Source: Thalassotalea sp. PS06
Lineage (GTDB): Bacteria; Pseudomonadota; Gammaproteobacteria; Enterobacterales; Alteromonadaceae
Assembly: GCF_007197775.1 (NCBI RefSeq)
Contig: NZ_CP041638.1
Location: 1,736,001-1,800,000 of the forward strand
DNA: 64,000 nucleotides
Direction: 5' to 3'
The translations under genes and the position numbers were made by a program. The first letter of the stretch is position 1. Every line of letters starts with the position of its first letter. Shown here one piece after another: positions 16,061-22,727 of the stretch. Under the pieces are notes generated by a model. The model saw only the letters and a program-made list of their open reading frames with translations, did no database searches and was not told the DNA's origin.

Positions 16061-18343
16061 ATGAAAACCTTCAAACCAAATACTCTGGCTATGAGTATTA
16101 ATGGCGCGATTTTATCTGTTGCCGCGTTGGCAGCAAACCCAGTACTTGCAGAGGAGGAGGGTCAACAACTTGATTCTTCTAAGCTGGAAGTTATTGAAGT
16201 AACGGCTCGTAAAAGAACCGAGAACGTTCAGGAAGTACCGGTATCGGTAACCGCGGTACAAGGCGAACAGTTAGAAGCTATCTCTTCTGCTGCTATGGAT
16301 ATTCGCTTTTTAAATGCTCGTGTACCTAGCTTAAGTGTAGAGTCCTCGTTCGGACGTACATTCCCGCGTTTTTACATGCGTGGTTTAGGTAACAGCGATT
16401 TCGATCTAAATGCATCTCAACCAGTTTCCCTTGTTGTTGATGACGTTGTGCAAGAAAACCCAATTCTTAAAGGTTTCCCAGTATTTGATGTTGAGCGTGT
16501 TGAAGTTCTGGGCGGACCGCAAGGTACGTTATTCGGCCGTAACACACCAGCCGGTTTGGTGAAATTCGATTCCGTAAAACCATCTCAGGATTTCGACGGT
16601 TTCGTTTCTCTTTCCTACGGTAGCAAATCTACAAGTGATTTCAGAGCAGCCATTGGTGGCGGTTTAACGGATCGTTTGTCTGCCCGTATCTCGGTATTAC
16701 GTCAAGACCGTGATGATTACATCGACAACAAAGCACCAGGCTTTGAAGAAAACGATGTACTAGGTGGTTACACCGATCAAGCAGCTCGTATTCAGTTCTT
16801 GTATGAAGGTGATGACTGGACGGCGTTATTCAACTACCACATGCGTGATTTAGATGGTAAGCCAGTTACTTTTTACGCCAATGCTTTCGAACCAGGTTCT
16901 AGCAATTTAGGCGGTCCAGGTTGGGAAGGTCGTGATACCGTATTCCACGATTCTGCTTCTCGTGCTACGCAACAGGTTGAAACCGAAGGCGGTAGCTTAA
17001 AACTTGAGTTTGAATTAGGTGACTTCACCCTAACATCTGTATCCGGTTACGAGAGCGCAGAACTATTTTCTCGTGCTGACGTAGATGGTGGTTACGGTGC
17101 GGTTTACGCACAACCTATGGGTCCGGGTGTAATTACCCTTGACTCTGAAACTGCTGACGGCATTCCAGATCACGAGCAAATCACTCAGGAATTACGTCTA
17201 GCCAGTAACTTAGACGGCAAGTTCAACTACCAGGTTGGTTTGTTCTACTTCAACGAAGATCTAACCATCGAAAGTTTCGCATTTGATCCACTATTTAGTG
17301 GTGGCGCGCAAACCGGTTATGTAATTCAGGAACAGGAAACTACTGCCTGGGCGGTATTCGGTTCTTTTGATTACGATTTCACCGATGCAACGTCTGCAAC
17401 GTTTGGTATCCGTTATTCTGACGATGAAAAAGAATATTCAAACCAACGTACTATGTCTCCTCTTGCGTTCTTAGGTGCTCCGAATGAAGCCTCTGGTTCT
17501 GTGGATACTTCTGATGATTACGTAAGCTGGGATATCAGTGTTAGCCACAAGCTAACCGGTGATGTGAACCTATATGCACGAGTTGCTGATACGTTCCGCG
17601 CCCCAAGTATCCAGGGTCGTTCATTATTTGCTTTTGATGACGGCATTTCCGTTGCTGAAACTGAGTCAATCCTGTCTTACGAAGCTGGTGTGAAATCTAA
17701 CATCCTTGACGGTAGCGGTCGTTTAAATGCGTCTGTTTTCTACTACACCATGGATGACCAGCAATTAACGTCTGTTGGTGGCGATAGCAACACTGCGCGT
17801 CTACTTAACGCTGATGAAACGGTTGGTTACGGTTTTGAAGTTGATTCTGAATTCATGCTTACCGACAACTTTGCAATCACTGCAAGCGTAAGTTACAACA
17901 ACACGGAATTAAATGACGATTCATTGTCAGTTCCAGTGTGTGCTTTGTGTACAGTAACCGATCCGCTAAATGCTAATGGTCAGGCGATTGTTGATGGCAA
18001 CAGCCTTCCTCATGCTCCAGAGTGGATTTACACGTTCACAGCGCGTTACGCCATTGAAGTTGGTAGCGGTGAGCTATACGCCTACACCGATTGGTCATAT
18101 CGCGATGACATCAGCTTCTTCTTATATGAATCAGAAGAGTTTAATGGTAAGTCATTGCTAGAAGGCGGTGTTCGTACCGGTTATGCGTGGGAAACTGATG
18201 CTCAAGAGTATGACGTTTCTTTATTCGTAAGAAACTTAACCGACGAGCAACAAGCCATTGGTGCGGTTGACTTCACTAACAACACGGCAATTGTAAACGA
18301 AGAGCGCTTCGTTGGTGCTGAGTTCAAAGTTAGCTTTTTCTAA
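16061..18343 (+). CDS. TonB-dependent outer membrane receptor
   Basis: A 760-aa protein with a signal peptide (ending near VLAEEE, residue 31) and a TonB-box-like VIEVTARKR near residues 44-52. The plug domain follows to about residue 160 (VERVEVLGGPQGTLFGRNTPAGLV), then a 22-strand barrel ending in the terminal Phe of FKVSFF. It imports a ligand across the outer membrane using TonB energy. The ligand is not readable from sequence. Its position after deoB and among deo/add genes suggests nucleosides or nucleotides. It also lies upstream of the MbnH/MbnP cassette, so a copper- or redox-linked ligand is an alternative. The ribosome site GGGAGA precedes the ATG. Confidence 0.9.
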   Translation: MKTFKPNTLAMSINGAILSVAALAANPVLAEEEGQQLDSSKLEVIEVTARKRTENVQEVPVSVTAVQGEQLEAISSAAMDIRFLNARVPSLSVESSFGRTFPRFYMRGLGNSDFDLNASQPVSLVVDDVVQENPILKGFPVFDVERVEVLGGPQGTLFGRNTPAGLVKFDSVKPSQDFDGFVSLSYGSKSTSDFRAAIGGGLTDRLSARISVLRQDRDDYIDNKAPGFEENDVLGGYTDQAARIQFLYEGDDWTALFNYHMRDLDGKPVTFYANAFEPGSSNLGGPGWEGRDTVFHDSASRATQQVETEGGSLKLEFELGDFTLTSVSGYESAELFSRADVDGGYGAVYAQPMGPGVITLDSETADGIPDHEQITQELRLASNLDGKFNYQVGLFYFNEDLTIESFAFDPLFSGGAQTGYVIQEQETTAWAVFGSFDYDFTDATSATFGIRYSDDEKEYSNQRTMSPLAFLGAPNEASGSVDTSDDYVSWDISVSHKLTGDVNLYARVADTFRAPSIQGRSLFAFDDGISVAETESILSYEAGVKSNILDGSGRLNASVFYYTMDDQQLTSVGGDSNTARLLNADETVGYGFEVDSEFMLTDNFAITASVSYNNTELNDDSLSVPVCALCTVTDPLNANGQAIVDGNSLPHAPEWIYTFTARYAIEVGSGELYAYTDWSYRDDISFFLYESEEFNGKSLLEGGVRTGYAWETDAQEYDVSLFVRNLTDEQQAIGAVDFTNNTAIVNEERFVGAEFKVSFF

Positions 18344-18546: not shown

Positions 18547-18618
18547 ATACCTGTTTAATCGCCGACTTGTGATTTTAGACGAAAATCTCATCTTGCAAGA
18601 AGATATGTAGACAGGTAT
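18547..18618 (+). other. possible structured RNA leader (nested hairpins)
   Basis: An 8-bp outer stem ATACCTGT (18547-18554) / ACAGGTAT (18611-18618) encloses two small hairpins with five-base loops, GATTTT/AAAATC (18571-18587) and ATCTT/AAGAT (18590-18604). This is a junction-like fold lying 177 bases before the lipoprotein start. It could be an RNA leader or an operator cluster, or a coincidence in AT-rich DNA. The rest of 18394-18794 shows no gene. Confidence 0.3.
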
Positions 18619-18698
18619 TCATACTCGAGGGAGAAAATTCGTTACGCGACTCTTCTGTTCTAATCGCCTTCATTTCGCTGAATCTCAGTACTTCCTTT

Positions 18699-18729
18699 AT
18701 TAATTAACATTAACTAAAAGCACTATAAT
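18699..18729 (+). promoter_or_regulatory. candidate promoter of the lipoprotein-MbnH-MbnP cassette
   Basis: A consensus -10 box TATAAT lies at 18724-18729, with the repeated element ATTAATTAACATT (18699-18711, also seen at 14597-14609) across the -35 region. No good TTGACA match is seen, which suggests dependence on an activator. Confidence 0.4.
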
Positions 18730-18794
18730 TGTAACCTCAAAGCCAGAGGTTTTTGGGTTACCTAATTACGCACGACAAAGTTAAGGAACTCGTT

Positions 18795-20168
18795 ATGATT
18801 AAATTGATGCATATTATTGCCTTGATCACTTTAGTCGCTATATCTGGATGCAGTGAAAATAACAAAGAACCACGGACGACCGGCGAAAGTGATGAAGCCT
18901 CGCAAGCAAAGCCAGCAGCTCCAGCCCCCGCAGATAGCGATCAGAATATTGAAGAAAGCCAGGCAGTGGTTTTGCTATCAGGCCTGCCAACTTTAGATAC
19001 AACAGACAGTATCGCGATTGTTGAGTTAGATCCTGAATCAGAAAACTTTGGCAATATTTTATATGAATATCCCTTGCCGAAATATGACGCACCGTTGCAC
19101 CATTTGTATTACAGTCCGAATGGCCGTCTTTATGCAACTGGACTAGGAACAGAATGCAGTTTAGCTGAAATTGGCCTGGTCAGGAATGCGCAGTCTGAAC
19201 CTCAGATAAAGGATGTCACTTGCCTGGATACTCAAGGTCAGCAAGTGGGAGAAGATATCATGTGGCATAGTGTGAACGGCAAGAACTTTATGTTCGTCAC
19301 CTTTATGGGCGGAACCGGGGTTGATCAAAAAGATGCAGGTTCTGTTGGCGTTTTTGACCCTCAGACCAACGAAGTTATCAAAGTTATTGAAGCCAGAAAG
19401 TCGCAAGTGGCAGAAGGTGAACCTTTTATCATGTATCCACATGGTATCTCAGCTTATGGCGATCGTATGGTTGTAACATCCACTTCTCATCCAAACTTGA
19501 AAGATGGTGTTGGCAACTCGGTAACCATTATTGATCTGAATACCCTGGAACCTATTGAAAACATCATAACTGAAGATTCAAAACCGGTTGGTTTTCCTTC
19601 TTCGCCAGTTGAAGTGTTGTTCGTTCGACCCAGCATCGTGGAGGGAGTAGAGCCAGCAGTTTTGGTAAATACTATGTTTGGCTTTGAAACCTGGAAGATT
19701 CCTTACAATGAATCGGATAGAAGTTTCGGAACTCCCGAAAAATTATATGATGGTGCCGAAAATGGTACCGGTGTTCCTCTGGAGTTTTATGGTAACGAGA
19801 CAGAGTTGTTTATTAGTCATGCAGTACCAGGAGTTGTAAAACGTTACGATCTACAGCAATTACCAGATCTCGTTTCCTCCGGAGCTGATATTCAGGCAGA
19901 AGCCGGTGCTCATCACATGATTTTCTTTAAATCTGCTTCAGGTCGAGATTTAGTGGCAATTCAAAATAACTTATTGAATTTAGGGAACGCTGAGGACAAC
20001 GACCCAACGGATGTAGACTTTATTGCCAAAATTAACGCTCATTCAGTTACCGTTCACGATTTAAAAACTGGTGAAAAACTGGCAACCGTTAACTTCAAAG
20101 ACAAATATCAAAAAGGTATTGATAACATTGAAAGTTTGTTCGGCTCTGGATTTGTCCACCACCATTAA
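18795..20168 (+). CDS. putative beta-propeller lipoprotein
   Basis: A 457-aa predicted lipoprotein. I chose the ATG at 18795: AAGGAA precedes it, and MIKLMHIIALITLVAISGC then gives a good lipobox (ISGC). A Pro/Ala/Ser-rich linker (about residues 30-55) precedes a domain with repeated segments such as VGVFDPQTNEVIKVI and VTIIDLNTLEPI, typical of YVTN/YncE-like propeller blades. It ends FVHHH, and other His lie in MYPHGIS and GAHHMIF, so metal binding is possible. Its stop lies five bases before the di-haem gene, so it is probably co-transcribed with it. I do not recognise a named family. Confidence 0.65.
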   Translation: MIKLMHIIALITLVAISGCSENNKEPRTTGESDEASQAKPAAPAPADSDQNIEESQAVVLLSGLPTLDTTDSIAIVELDPESENFGNILYEYPLPKYDAPLHHLYYSPNGRLYATGLGTECSLAEIGLVRNAQSEPQIKDVTCLDTQGQQVGEDIMWHSVNGKNFMFVTFMGGTGVDQKDAGSVGVFDPQTNEVIKVIEARKSQVAEGEPFIMYPHGISAYGDRMVVTSTSHPNLKDGVGNSVTIIDLNTLEPIENIITEDSKPVGFPSSPVEVLFVRPSIVEGVEPAVLVNTMFGFETWKIPYNESDRSFGTPEKLYDGAENGTGVPLEFYGNETELFISHAVPGVVKRYDLQQLPDLVSSGADIQAEAGAHHMIFFKSASGRDLVAIQNNLLNLGNAEDNDPTDVDFIAKINAHSVTVHDLKTGEKLATVNFKDKYQKGIDNIESLFGSGFVHHH

Positions 20169-20173
20169 ATCTT

Positions 20174-21298
20174 ATGATTAAAGTCATTGGTTCAGCGATA
20201 GTTATTGTTATCACTATTTCTATCGCTGTTGTGTGGGGCACTAAGCCGGTCAAGCCAAAAACAACCCTGGTGGATTTTACCGCCCCGTTTGTTTTTGGTC
20301 ATTTTAAAATTCCTCAGGATAATCCTTTCACGTATGAGTCGGTCAAACTCGGGCGAAGACTTTTCTATGATCCAATCCTATCAGGCAATAACCAGATCTC
20401 ATGTGCGACTTGTCATAAACAGGAACTGGCTTTTACTGATGGATTGAGTCGAGCTGTAGGGGCGTCTGGTAATCCATTACCATTTAATTCAATGAGTTTA
20501 GTTAATCTCATGTGGGGACCCAGGCACTTTTTCTGGAATGGACGAGTTACTTCTCTTGAGTCACAGGCGCTAATGCCGATACAGCATGTCGATGAAATGG
20601 ATCAAGATTTAGATGAATTAATCGAAGAACTTGAGCACGACGAAACCTATCAAGAGTTATTTGCTAATGCTTACGGTGATATCTCAGCTGAAAATATTGC
20701 CAAAGCTCTCGCTAGTTTTCAGCGCTCCTTGATATCAGCGAACTCCAAATATGACAAGTACTTGCGTGGTGAAATAAATCTTACTGATGAAGAAGAGTTG
20801 GGACGAAAACTATTTATGGCTCACCCCGATACGAAAGTTTCGTTACGTGGGGGCAATTGCATTGACTGTCATAGTCAATTTCTGACAGCTGGTTTTGCCA
20901 CGGGATACGATGGCTTTAGCAATAATGGTCTGGACAAAGATAGCGATCTCAAAGATGGTTTATATGAAGTTACCGGAAATGAAGCTCATCGAGGACTTTT
21001 TAAGGTTCCAACATTGCGGAATATTGCGGTAACCGGGCCATATATGCATGATGGGCGGTTTAATACTCTTGAAGAGGTTTTGGAGCATTATAATTCCGGA
21101 ATTAAATTGAGTAATACGCTGAGTCCGTTAATTATCGAAGCCGATAACCGCGAAAAAACTGATCAACAGTCAGTTAGCTTGCACTTAACGGAAAAAGAAA
21201 AGAGGGCAATTATTGCCTTCCTTCACACCCTGACTGACCAAGAATTTTTGTCGAATGATGCCTTTTCCGATCCTTTCAGACAGGAGTCAGAAAAATGA
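20174..21298 (+). CDS. di-haem cytochrome c peroxidase family protein, MbnH/MauG-like
   Basis: A 374-aa exported protein with an N-terminal membrane segment (residues 3-22) and two haem c sites: CATCH at 77-81 and CIDCH at 229-233. GPYMHDGRF near residues 288-296 is the conserved segment of the bacterial di-haem peroxidase/MauG group. In MauG and MbnH, high-valent di-haem iron modifies Trp in a partner protein. The next gene overlaps by four bases and encodes an MbnP-like protein, the known MbnH partner, so I favour MbnH over a plain hydrogen peroxide scavenger. Assignment to MbnH is inference from context. Confidence 0.85.
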   Translation: MIKVIGSAIVIVITISIAVVWGTKPVKPKTTLVDFTAPFVFGHFKIPQDNPFTYESVKLGRRLFYDPILSGNNQISCATCHKQELAFTDGLSRAVGASGNPLPFNSMSLVNLMWGPRHFFWNGRVTSLESQALMPIQHVDEMDQDLDELIEELEHDETYQELFANAYGDISAENIAKALASFQRSLISANSKYDKYLRGEINLTDEEELGRKLFMAHPDTKVSLRGGNCIDCHSQFLTAGFATGYDGFSNNGLDKDSDLKDGLYEVTGNEAHRGLFKVPTLRNIAVTGPYMHDGRFNTLEEVLEHYNSGIKLSNTLSPLIIEADNREKTDQQSVSLHLTEKEKRAIIAFLHTLTDQEFLSNDAFSDPFRQESEK

Positions 21299-22017
21299 CT
21301 AAATCTCTATCAATATCCGCTTTTATTATCGTAGCGATAGCAACAGCCTGTACCCTATGGCAGTACACATCCAATAAACCGATAACTTTGCGCTTTCATG
21401 CATACAACGGTGACGAATCTCTGGTGTTTAATGATTCTCGCTATGCAAACCCAGGAGGCTCGGGACAATATCTGGTCAGGGATTTACAGCTATTTGTGAG
21501 TAACATCAGATTGCTTGGTGAAAAAAATCAATACGAGGAAGGGGAGAGTTACCATTTGTTGCGCTTTGATAATGAGCAGGGCTATTTTGATATAGTGATT
21601 GAAGGCCTGGCTCTGAAGCAGTATGACACGATTGAAATTGGTATTGGCGTGGATCCTGAGGCAAATGGCACTATTATGTTTGCCGGCGATTTGGACCCGA
21701 ATGGACGTATGGCGTGGAATTGGCAGGTCGGTTACAAGTTTCTGTTGTTGGAGGGAAGTTTGGATACTAACGGCAGCAAGACACCTCTGGTTTATCATAT
21801 TGGTTTTGATGAGAGTTATACCCGAGTGTCATTTCCTTTAAAAGTTAATGAATTATTCTCAGACGATGTTATCGATTTTCGAGTGGATATAAATCAGCTA
21901 TTTGATCAAAAACATCCAGTTGATATGAGCCATATATCTACCGTTAAGTTTGATCCTGAAAATGTGCGAACCATTGCCCGGGCATTTCCGCAATTAATTT
22001 CAATTCAACAAAACTAA
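21295..22017 (+). CDS. MbnP-like copper-binding protein
   Basis: A 240-aa exported protein with an N-terminal hydrophobic anchor (residues 5-19, possibly a weak lipobox ATAC). The domain begins ITLRFHAYNGDESLVFNDS, continues YLVRDLQLFVSNIRLL and has the signature MAWNWQVGYKFLLLEG (Trp 141 and 143), then LVYHIGF with a His near 168. These match the MbnP-like family. In Methylosinus MbnP, MbnH oxidises a Trp to kynurenine to build a copper site. Translation is probably coupled to the di-haem gene (start overlaps its stop). No methanobactin gene is seen here, so it may act in general copper handling. Confidence 0.8.
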   Translation: MTKSLSISAFIIVAIATACTLWQYTSNKPITLRFHAYNGDESLVFNDSRYANPGGSGQYLVRDLQLFVSNIRLLGEKNQYEEGESYHLLRFDNEQGYFDIVIEGLALKQYDTIEIGIGVDPEANGTIMFAGDLDPNGRMAWNWQVGYKFLLLEGSLDTNGSKTPLVYHIGFDESYTRVSFPLKVNELFSDDVIDFRVDINQLFDQKHPVDMSHISTVKFDPENVRTIARAFPQLISIQQN

Positions 22018-22082: not shown

Positions 22083-22727
22083 TTAATCTTTATAACCCCA
22101 GGGCGCTGCAGGCGGTGTTACCGGTTTGGTTAAATCAAAATCAACCCGAAATTCCCGGCCCTGGCGAATTAACCGATAGGTAAAAGTTTCCGGGTAGATA
22201 AACATCTGCCAGGTATTACCGTTCGATTGCGGGATTCCAAGTTCAACGAACAATTCCTTTGAATACTGATCCGCGGGAAACGATTGCACCTCCGCCCAGC
22301 CCGCATCGACGGTATGACCACCATACATGGTTGATTTATCACTGCTACCATCCTGATGGCGATGGTCGTGTTTAAGCTGTAATCCAGAGCCGGTTTTGGT
22401 AATTAACCAGGTTCTCGAGGCATCATCACCAACGTGGAAGGGTACCTGCAACTGACGATCATCACATATACGAACGTGCATGATCAGCTCTTTGCCGGCA
22501 AACCCGCCACCGTCAGAATTATCAACGGTGATCTTGCCTGCATAAGCTTTACCACAATGGCTTTTGATAGCGTCGAAAAACGCATCATGGGTTTTTATCG
22601 ATACTAGTGGTGCCTCAGATACTTGATGCTCACCACTTGTATTTTTACTTGCCGCTAACGCATTGCCCGACAGCGTGAACGTTGTGGCGATTGCTGAAGC
22701 AATTAAAGCCGTTTTTAAAATCGCCAT
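22083..22727 (-). CDS. exported protein of unknown function, coupled to deoD
   Basis: A 214-aa secreted protein with signal peptide [17 protein letters not shown]... ending near NALA (residue 25). The mature part has a Cys pair (SHCGKAYAGKI and VRICDD), a His-rich segment (LKHDHRHQDGSSD) and a C-terminal TYRLIRQGREFRVDFDLTKPV. I know no named function. Similar small secreted proteins occur in Alteromonadales. Its ATG shares one base with the deoD stop, so the two are translationally coupled. This ties it to nucleoside catabolism by position only. Confidence 0.72.
   Translation of the reverse strand: MAILKTALIASAIATTFTLSGNALAASKNTSGEHQVSEAPLVSIKTHDAFFDAIKSHCGKAYAGKITVDNSDGGGFAGKELIMHVRICDDRQLQVPFHVGDDASRTWLITKTGSGLQLKHDHRHQDGSSDKSTMYGGHTVDAGWAEVQSFPADQYSKELFVELGIPQSNGNTWQMFIYPETFTYRLIRQGREFRVDFDLTKPVTPPAAPWGYKD

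Follow-up and report, generated by a model that had tools for sequence, protein, structure and literature searches.

A propeller lipoprotein gene linked to MbnH and MbnP in Thalassotalea sp. PS06: a three-gene cassette with a possible role in copper-protein maturation

Among the closest described systems to the locus considered here is the MbnP-MbnH pair of Methylosinus trichosporium (PF20243 and TIGR04052 for MbnP, TIGR04039 for MbnH; PDB 7l6g and 6e1c). A second is the mtoX operon, which combines an SBP56 copper enzyme with SCO1, a copper chaperone, and a protein of the MauG type (PMC5739008, PMC6548844). CorA/CorB and MopE of Methylomicrobium and Methylococcus also place a di-haem gene beside a kynurenine-containing Cu(I) protein (PMC3912023). 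MbnP is described as having no marked sequence similarity to CorA or MopE (PMC3621798). We analysed a 64,000-nucleotide stretch of Thalassotalea sp. PS06 (the window; NZ_CP041638.1, positions 1,736,001 to 1,800,000), where a sequence-only reading had placed at 18547..22017 a cassette of three tightly linked genes. These encode a propeller-like lipoprotein (LIP), an MbnH-type di-haem protein and an MbnP-type protein. The genes occupy 18795-22017; the start at 18547 had taken in about 250 bases of upstream DNA.

18795..20168, plus strand: LIP, propeller lipoprotein, 457 aa; ATG at 18795, stop at 20168; nearest family SBP56/methanethiol oxidase
20174..21298, plus strand: MbnH-type di-haem protein, 374 aa; PF03150 (CCP_MauG) 198 bits, cut-off 25.6
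21295..22017, plus strand: MbnP-type protein, 240 aa; contains WNWQVGYKF; N-terminal helix, apparent membrane anchor
21295..21298, plus strand: ATGA, four-base overlap of the MbnH stop and MbnP start, from open reading frame (ORF) coordinates

Linkage of LIP, MbnH and MbnP

The cassette is a real three-gene system, far beyond chance, because the MbnP-type protein matches PF20243 (MbnP) at 120.1 bits against a cut-off of 27, the PF03150 score of the di-haem protein is also well above its cut-off, and the three genes keep one order across relatives. The features read from the sequence are all present: CATCH (residues 77-81), CIDCH (229-233) and GPYMHDGRF in MbnH, WNWQVGYKF in MbnP and the FVHHH ending of LIP. 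A TTG at 18753 gives a longer alternative start for the LIP ORF. LIP and MbnH are 5 bases apart (median across loci, 12 bases), and the predicted four-base overlap of mbnH and mbnP is found. Of 39 loci, 14 share this four-base overlap, 11 overlap by one base and 5 by eight.

An alignment of 20 LIP sequences, used to scan the species-genome collection for relatives, gave 46 loci (L005-L050). The scan was seeded on two conserved LIP peptides and so reached near relatives; 20 of the 46 loci are Ruegeria or Leisingera. All three genes are present as ORFs, on one strand and in the order LIP-MbnH-MbnP, at 40 of the 46 loci (the scripted order and strand check passed 40 of L003-L050, with L017 and L041 excluded through ORF overlap). 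Contig ends cut four loci: L022, with LIP, MbnH and the start of MbnP; L049, with the end of LIP, MbnH and MbnP; and L040 and L044, each with partial LIP. In Ruegeria arenilitoris (L050, 7930-10157) all three genes are broken and their order is retained. In a Paracoccaceae assembly (L037, 8001-9212) LIP has neither MbnH nor MbnP within 8 kb on each side. This is the sole open-flank LIP without partners among the 46 loci, and its tail is FVAHH, not FVHHH. LIP, which the sequence-only reading treated as an extra component, is therefore conserved beside the pair in the relatives surveyed, and the near-obligate linkage of the three genes is well supported.

Hosts are Gamma- and Alphaproteobacteria and one Gemmatimonadales assembly, with Thalassotalea, Colwellia, Alteromonas, Ruegeria and Leisingera as the named marine genera. 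Clustering of the ORFs of L003-L050 recovers LIP at 46 loci, MbnH at 44 and MbnP at 44. Flanking genes differ by lineage, and no other recurrent gene group occurs in more than 12 of these loci, once ORFs antisense to the three genes are set aside. Tree distances at 43 loci are correlated (r 0.83 for LIP-MbnH, 0.86 for LIP-MbnP and 0.80 for MbnH-MbnP; 0 of 1000 permutations each), and the three trees share 23 to 28 of 40 splits. The correlated trees show shared travel, for which co-inheritance alone could account.

The MbnP family is also found in another arrangement. A search of 295 genomes from the order to which the window belongs gave PF20243 in 33. Among the 32 loci outside the window, one (L083) is a trio and 26 have MbnP with an adjacent di-haem gene. 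These ordinary pairs run MbnP-MbnH and lack LIP in 26 of the 26 scored, which are 25 labelled pairs and L106, where MbnP was placed from the 295-genome PF20243 search. Left out of this count are L101, at a contig end, and L109-L112, which score low and showed no di-haem neighbour. A tree built from 83 di-haem proteins divides into three: the 48 three-gene rows share a branch of their own (support 100/99, length 1.78), and the 26 pair rows and the 9 mto-operon rows each have theirs. Two label changes suffice, which is the minimum; the tree holds duplicate rows, the program flags long branches in the three-gene and mto clades, and we use only the three-gene grouping. Against NCBIfam TIGR04039 (MbnH family di-heme enzyme) the window's MbnH scores 290.2 bits, below the cut-off of 362.85. 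Further trio MbnHs score 250-265 bits (three of three below), and ordinary MbnHs 516-519 (two of two pass). The window's MbnP scores 35.8 bits to TIGR04052 (MbnP_like_WxW; cut-off 140). Trio MbnPs at L034 and L011 give 47.9 bits and no match at E 1e-10, and ordinary MbnPs 141-189 bits (three of three pass). Judged by sequence, the trio is a separate class of MbnPH, because it has its own MbnH branch and its scored members fall below NCBI cut-offs that ordinary ones pass.

Families and conserved residues of the three proteins

LIP is the least familiar of the three by family score. In a Pfam search SBP56 (PF05694) was the sole match at E <=0.1, with 20.9 bits against a cut-off of 34 (E 1.8e-4). 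NCBIfam gave 17.7 against 27.85 bits for the propeller repeat TIGR02276 and 11.5 against 650 for methanethiol oxidase (NF052453), so that LIP lies below the cut-offs of both SBP56/methanethiol oxidase families (PF05694, NF052453). Profile alignment with hhalign matched LIP to SBP56 at Prob 96.3 (E 1.6e-9, 316 columns, about 17% identity). The control, a profile of one other propeller family, the lactonases, gave Prob 6. With Foldseek, 2ece (SBP56) ranks first, and it is tied in VIA; the matches from one or the other also include lactonases, AztD, YncE, methylamine dehydrogenase and nitrous oxide reductase. PDB sequence matches are weak: a designed propeller at E 0.0022, and 2ece at E 0.11 and 0.014. 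SBP56 is placed nearest because Pfam, hhalign and Foldseek agree, the lactonase control is low, and three LIP cousins (L174, L175 and L176) score to both LIP and SBP56. A distant kinship of LIP to the SBP56/methanethiol-oxidase propellers is likely.

These cousins (33-35% identity) have no MbnH nearby and adjoin a 483-506-aa membrane protein with an HSFGERYDLP-type start. L174 also holds a 123-aa weak match to a multicopper-oxidase domain (17.4 against 21 bits). This neighbourhood is a second cluster, perhaps copper-related.

Conservation in LIP was counted over 163 rows: the window, 43 loci, and 119 sequences from the 120 best among 932 database matches. L037, L040, L044, L050, L003, L004 and L113 were dropped beforehand. 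The columns of interest are as follows.

18849..18851, plus strand: C19, lipobox Cys; Cys in 138 of 163 LIP rows, gap in 21
19098..19103, plus strand: H102-H103, putative copper ligands; 163/163 LIP, 3/3 cousins, 13/13 SBP56
19254..19256, plus strand: D154, at the column of the SBP56 PHT histidine; 163/163 LIP; Asp in 3/3 cousins, His in 13/13 SBP56
19263..19265, plus strand: W157; 163/163 LIP; Phe in 3/3 cousins, Tyr or His in 13/13 SBP56
19440..19442, plus strand: H216 (PHG), beside the SBP56 ligand-Asp column; 163/163 LIP, 3/3 cousins; the P215 column is Asp in 13/13 SBP56
19611..19613, plus strand: E273, at the SBP56 PLE Glu (taken as human E252); 163/163 LIP; Glu in 12/13 SBP56
19692..19694, plus strand: W300; 163/163 LIP, 3/3 cousins; Trp in 9/13 SBP56
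19782..19784, plus strand: E330; 163/163 LIP, 3/3 cousins; Asp in 12/13 SBP56 by MAFFT, but offset by 2 residues in hhalign
19911..19916, plus strand: H373-H374 (GAHH); 163/163 LIP, 3/3 cousins; not His in SBP56
20157..20165, plus strand: C-terminal HHH, residues 455-457; 163/163 LIP rows; cousins have a single aligned His

Of the SBP56 copper-site columns, LIP keeps HH and Glu, has Asp at the first HxxH His, and has a His one residue past the Asp column. We take H102-H103 as His89/90 of methanethiol oxidase (MTO) and H73/H74 of the human protein (PMC5739008, PMC10362175). Human SELENBP1 is reported to require each of H73, H74, H137, H140, D189 and E252 for activity (PMC10362175). As further ligands, H158 was rejected (His in only 29 of 47 rows of a smaller alignment), as were H232 and H342, which are not conserved in the cousins. 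The His tail is present in 44-45 of these 47 rows, a lower share because truncated or orphan rows (L037, L040, L044) are included. The label of lipoprotein stands in part. The lipobox Cys is common, but it is not universal among relatives: its column is gapped in 22 of the 47 rows, for example in Ruegeria L028. A crude lipobox pattern matched only 17 of the 47, a set in which many starts are misplaced.

The closest PDB sequence to MbnH is the di-heme enzyme 6e1c (E 5.9e-56). Its haem sites and two further columns are conserved.

20402..20416, plus strand: CATCH, haem 1; Cys, Cys and His in 48/48 three-gene rows
20534..20536, plus strand: W121 of FFWNGR; 48/48 three-gene rows; in pair rows Trp lies one column earlier, 26/26
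20858..20872, plus strand: CIDCH, haem 2; 48/48 three-gene rows
21089..21091, plus strand: Y306; Tyr in 48/48 three-gene, 26/26 pair and 9/9 mto-operon rows

Y306 presumably occupies the place of the axial Tyr of MauG. The Thalassotalea sp. PS06 genome has a second di-haem MauG-like gene (G000:C1:1314003-1314884; 39% identity to MbnH over residues 50-358), and no second MbnP to go with it was found in that genome.

For MbnP, neither phmmer nor a profile search gave PDB sequence matches. A structural model fits the solved MbnP fold (7l6g). Its site was examined in the best 120 of 623 matches and in 27 comparison rows (26 pair-type rows and trio row L049; trio rows L003 and L004 are cut and gapped).

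21709..21711, plus strand: M139, candidate Cu(I) ligand; 120/120 near homologues, 24/27 comparison rows
21715..21717, plus strand: W141, first Trp of WxW, predicted kynurenine; 120/120 and 27/27
21721..21723, plus strand: W143, second Trp of WxW; 120/120 and 27/27
21796..21798, plus strand: H168, candidate Cu(I) ligand; 120/120 and 27/27

The putative site and ligand roles of M139, W141, W143 and H168 follow those reported for MbnP. The family Trp is thus in place in the near homologues, and membership of the MbnP family is well supported. With LIP conserved beside the pair as well, no outcome among the three that would have refuted the sequence-only reading was observed. Kynurenine at W141 and Cu(I) on MbnP are what we infer from the families.

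Proposed function and its alternatives

We tentatively read the cassette as a single functional unit that supplies a copper protein of the cell envelope and the two factors that mature it. LIP would be a distant SBP56 relative with a channel His/Asp/Glu copper site formed by H102, H103, D154, H216 and E273; E330, H373/H374 and the His tail would lie near it. MbnH, a MauG-like di-haem enzyme, would oxidise W141 of MbnP to kynurenine. M139, H168 and the kynurenine site would then let MbnP hold Cu(I) and hand it to LIP, the part that SCO1 is proposed to play in the mtoX-SCO1-mauG operon. LIP itself may be a copper-dependent oxidase of a thiol or another small reduced compound. We infer the copper in LIP, its transfer, the oxidase activity and the substrate; MbnP is cast as donor and LIP as the working enzyme by analogy, because the cassette parallels mtoX-SCO1-mauG. 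The proposal of a unit draws on the linkage at 40 of 46 loci, the variable flanks, the joint decay at L050 and the correlated tree distances. It draws also on the position of LIP nearest SBP56, with copper-site columns kept or seemingly swapped, and on the conserved MbnP fold and WxW/Met/His residues. One result weighs against it: the SBP56 profile matches the lactonase profile at Prob 95.8, as strongly as it matches LIP. Because SBP56 also matches lactonases, we lowered our confidence from an even judgement to slightly below one.

The sequence-only reading had raised copper acquisition. In such a device, for acquisition or storage, LIP would bind copper at the surface or act as a metallochaperone, without being an enzyme, and would give copper to MbnP or receive it from there. 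The frequent lipobox Cys (138 of 163 rows) suits this, as does the presence of AztD, a zinc-chaperone propeller, among the Foldseek matches. CorA of Methylomicrobium album is likewise described as a surface Cu(I) protein with kynurenine (PMC3912023). The surroundings give acquisition no support. A TonB receptor gene (16061-18343) lies upstream between deoB and deoD, and was rejected as a part of the cassette because it recurs with udk, deoB, deoD and add without the cassette, in a nucleoside locus seen at five of eight same-genus loci (names by NCBIfam). Given this position, the receptor may import nucleosides or related compounds. No additional gene recurs with the cassette across lineages. 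The sequence-only reading saw no methanobactin gene, and MbnB (PF05114) is absent from the complete Thalassotalea sp. PS06 genome by a search that was positive in 2 of 14 control genomes, and a link to a methanobactin operon was rejected on this ground. The closest relatives of LIP with a characterised function are copper enzymes, and the median tree distance is 0.96 for LIP against 1.93 for MbnP, which suits an enzyme and proves nothing. Maturation of a copper protein fits the cassette better, and we regard acquisition or storage as unlikely.

A different division of labour would have MbnH oxidise W157 and/or W300 of LIP to kynurenine or a tryptophan-derived cofactor, with MbnP as copper donor only. 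W157 and W300 are the sole two Trp of the window's LIP and both are invariant in the 163 rows; position 157 is Phe in the three cousins without MbnH nearby. Eyice et al. proposed a tryptophan tryptophylquinone (TTQ) in MTO, made with the help of the MauG of the operon (PMC5739008); in that text the TTQ stands as a proposal. The orphan LIP at L037 retains Trp at 157, and MbnP keeps its full WxW/Met/His site, so that MbnH already has a substrate of the known type. We think this rival rather improbable. We are just as doubtful of a bolder extension, in which an SBP56-like copper propeller with a His/Asp-swapped site, the extra GAHH and His tail, and W157/W300 and/or the partner WxW oxidised by a dedicated MbnH would make an oxidase that uses a Trp-derived cofactor as well as copper and acts on something other than methanethiol. 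This would be a second, widespread MauG-type cofactor system.

Mobility bears on whether LIP works with the pair at all. LIP occurs in 3 of 59 genomes surveyed, the window's own included, and the other two sites are away from deoB; for this reason the cassette looks like a movable acquisition. LIP could then be functionally independent of an MbnPH pair with which it is merely co-inherited, and the cousin LIPs without the pair agree with this. The short gaps and overlaps, the single order across Gamma- and Alphaproteobacteria and the Gemmatimonadales assembly, the dedicated MbnH clade (100/99) and the joint decay at L050 all argue against it, and we consider it very improbable.

Several neighbours of the cassette were seen. 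It lies between receptor and deoD only in the window and L005 (L043 has a weak 96-bit receptor match). Another locus of the genus (L172, 5241-8241) has a different insertion at the receptor-deoD junction, made up of an ORF of 129 aa and a minus-strand ORF of 767 aa. Directly downstream of the cassette and facing it, 22083-22727 (minus strand) encodes a protein of 214 aa that seems to carry a signal peptide and matches no Pfam family at E 0.1; a similar gene is present at L005 (11359-12012). In Ruegeria, sulfopyruvate decarboxylase genes lie just upstream of LIP on the same strand at L034 (6710-7770; alpha and beta by NCBIfam), L030, L039 and L047. The beta gene occurs at 12 loci, every one of them Ruegeria; its distance from the LIP match is about 230 bases in four, 1.3 kb in three and 6-7 kb in four, and in the last it lies beside the decayed L050. 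Sulfonate catabolism was rejected as a general context because the beta gene is confined to Ruegeria loci; within Ruegeria the genes may point to a substrate containing sulfur.

In the literature searched, which left most subscription journals outside, we found no paper joining MbnP with 'selenium-binding protein' or SBP56 with kynurenine, and no prior description of the three-gene system. The PNAS 2021 paper on MbnP reportedly includes a neighbourhood analysis, and prior notice of the cassette there is possible. We know of no named client for kynurenine-site copper. The cassette offers LIP as a candidate client, with residue-level predictions, for MbnP-MbnH pairs outside methanobactin operons. 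As an MbnP-based counterpart to mtoX-SCO1-mauG, it would also bear on the roles of MauG-type proteins for SBP56 copper enzymes.

Comparison with described systems

Both families of the MbnP-MbnH pair are common to the cassette. Like the pair, it has the MbnP fold (by the model), WxW with Met and His, two CXXCH motifs, a Tyr at the axial place and adjacent genes. Unlike the pair, it runs MbnH-MbnP with a propeller gene in front, its MbnH forms a separate clade, and its proteins are under both NCBI cut-offs (290 against 362.85 and 35.8 against 140 bits). A Cys column present in 26 of 26 pair-type MbnPs is missing from the three-gene MbnP.

CorA differs in having two His and kynurenine as ligands, and the accessible text notes no propeller. 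Lactonases, AztD, YncE, methylamine dehydrogenase and nitrous oxide reductase share the beta-propeller fold with LIP. LIP is set apart from them by its sole Pfam match, SBP56, and by the Foldseek rank; the profile comparison covered lactonases.

The mtoX loci that were scanned carry SCO1 (PF02630) in five of five, once fused to MauG, and MauG in four of four proteins or fusions. Some MauG or SCO1 proteins were labelled 'SBP' (the query ORF being a neighbour or in a wrong frame), and A3 was built from independently chosen coordinates. No SCO1-like ORF was found in L003-L050 at E 1e-3, with a profile that was positive at 9 of 20 SBP56 loci. At one further locus (L157, 5774-7710) an SBP56 gene (193 bits to PF05694, 35 bits to LIP) is followed by a cupin gene instead of SCO1/MauG.

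Like the mtoX-SCO1-mauG operon of Hyphomicrobium, Ruegeria and Methylophaga, the cassette has an exported propeller with the copper-site HH and Glu, and beside it a di-haem MauG-type gene and a predicted copper-binding maturation protein. Unlike that operon, it has MbnP in place of SCO1, and its MauG-type protein comes from another clade. LIP itself is very distant from SBP56 methanethiol oxidase, with different His/Asp ligand columns and the extra GAHH and His tail.

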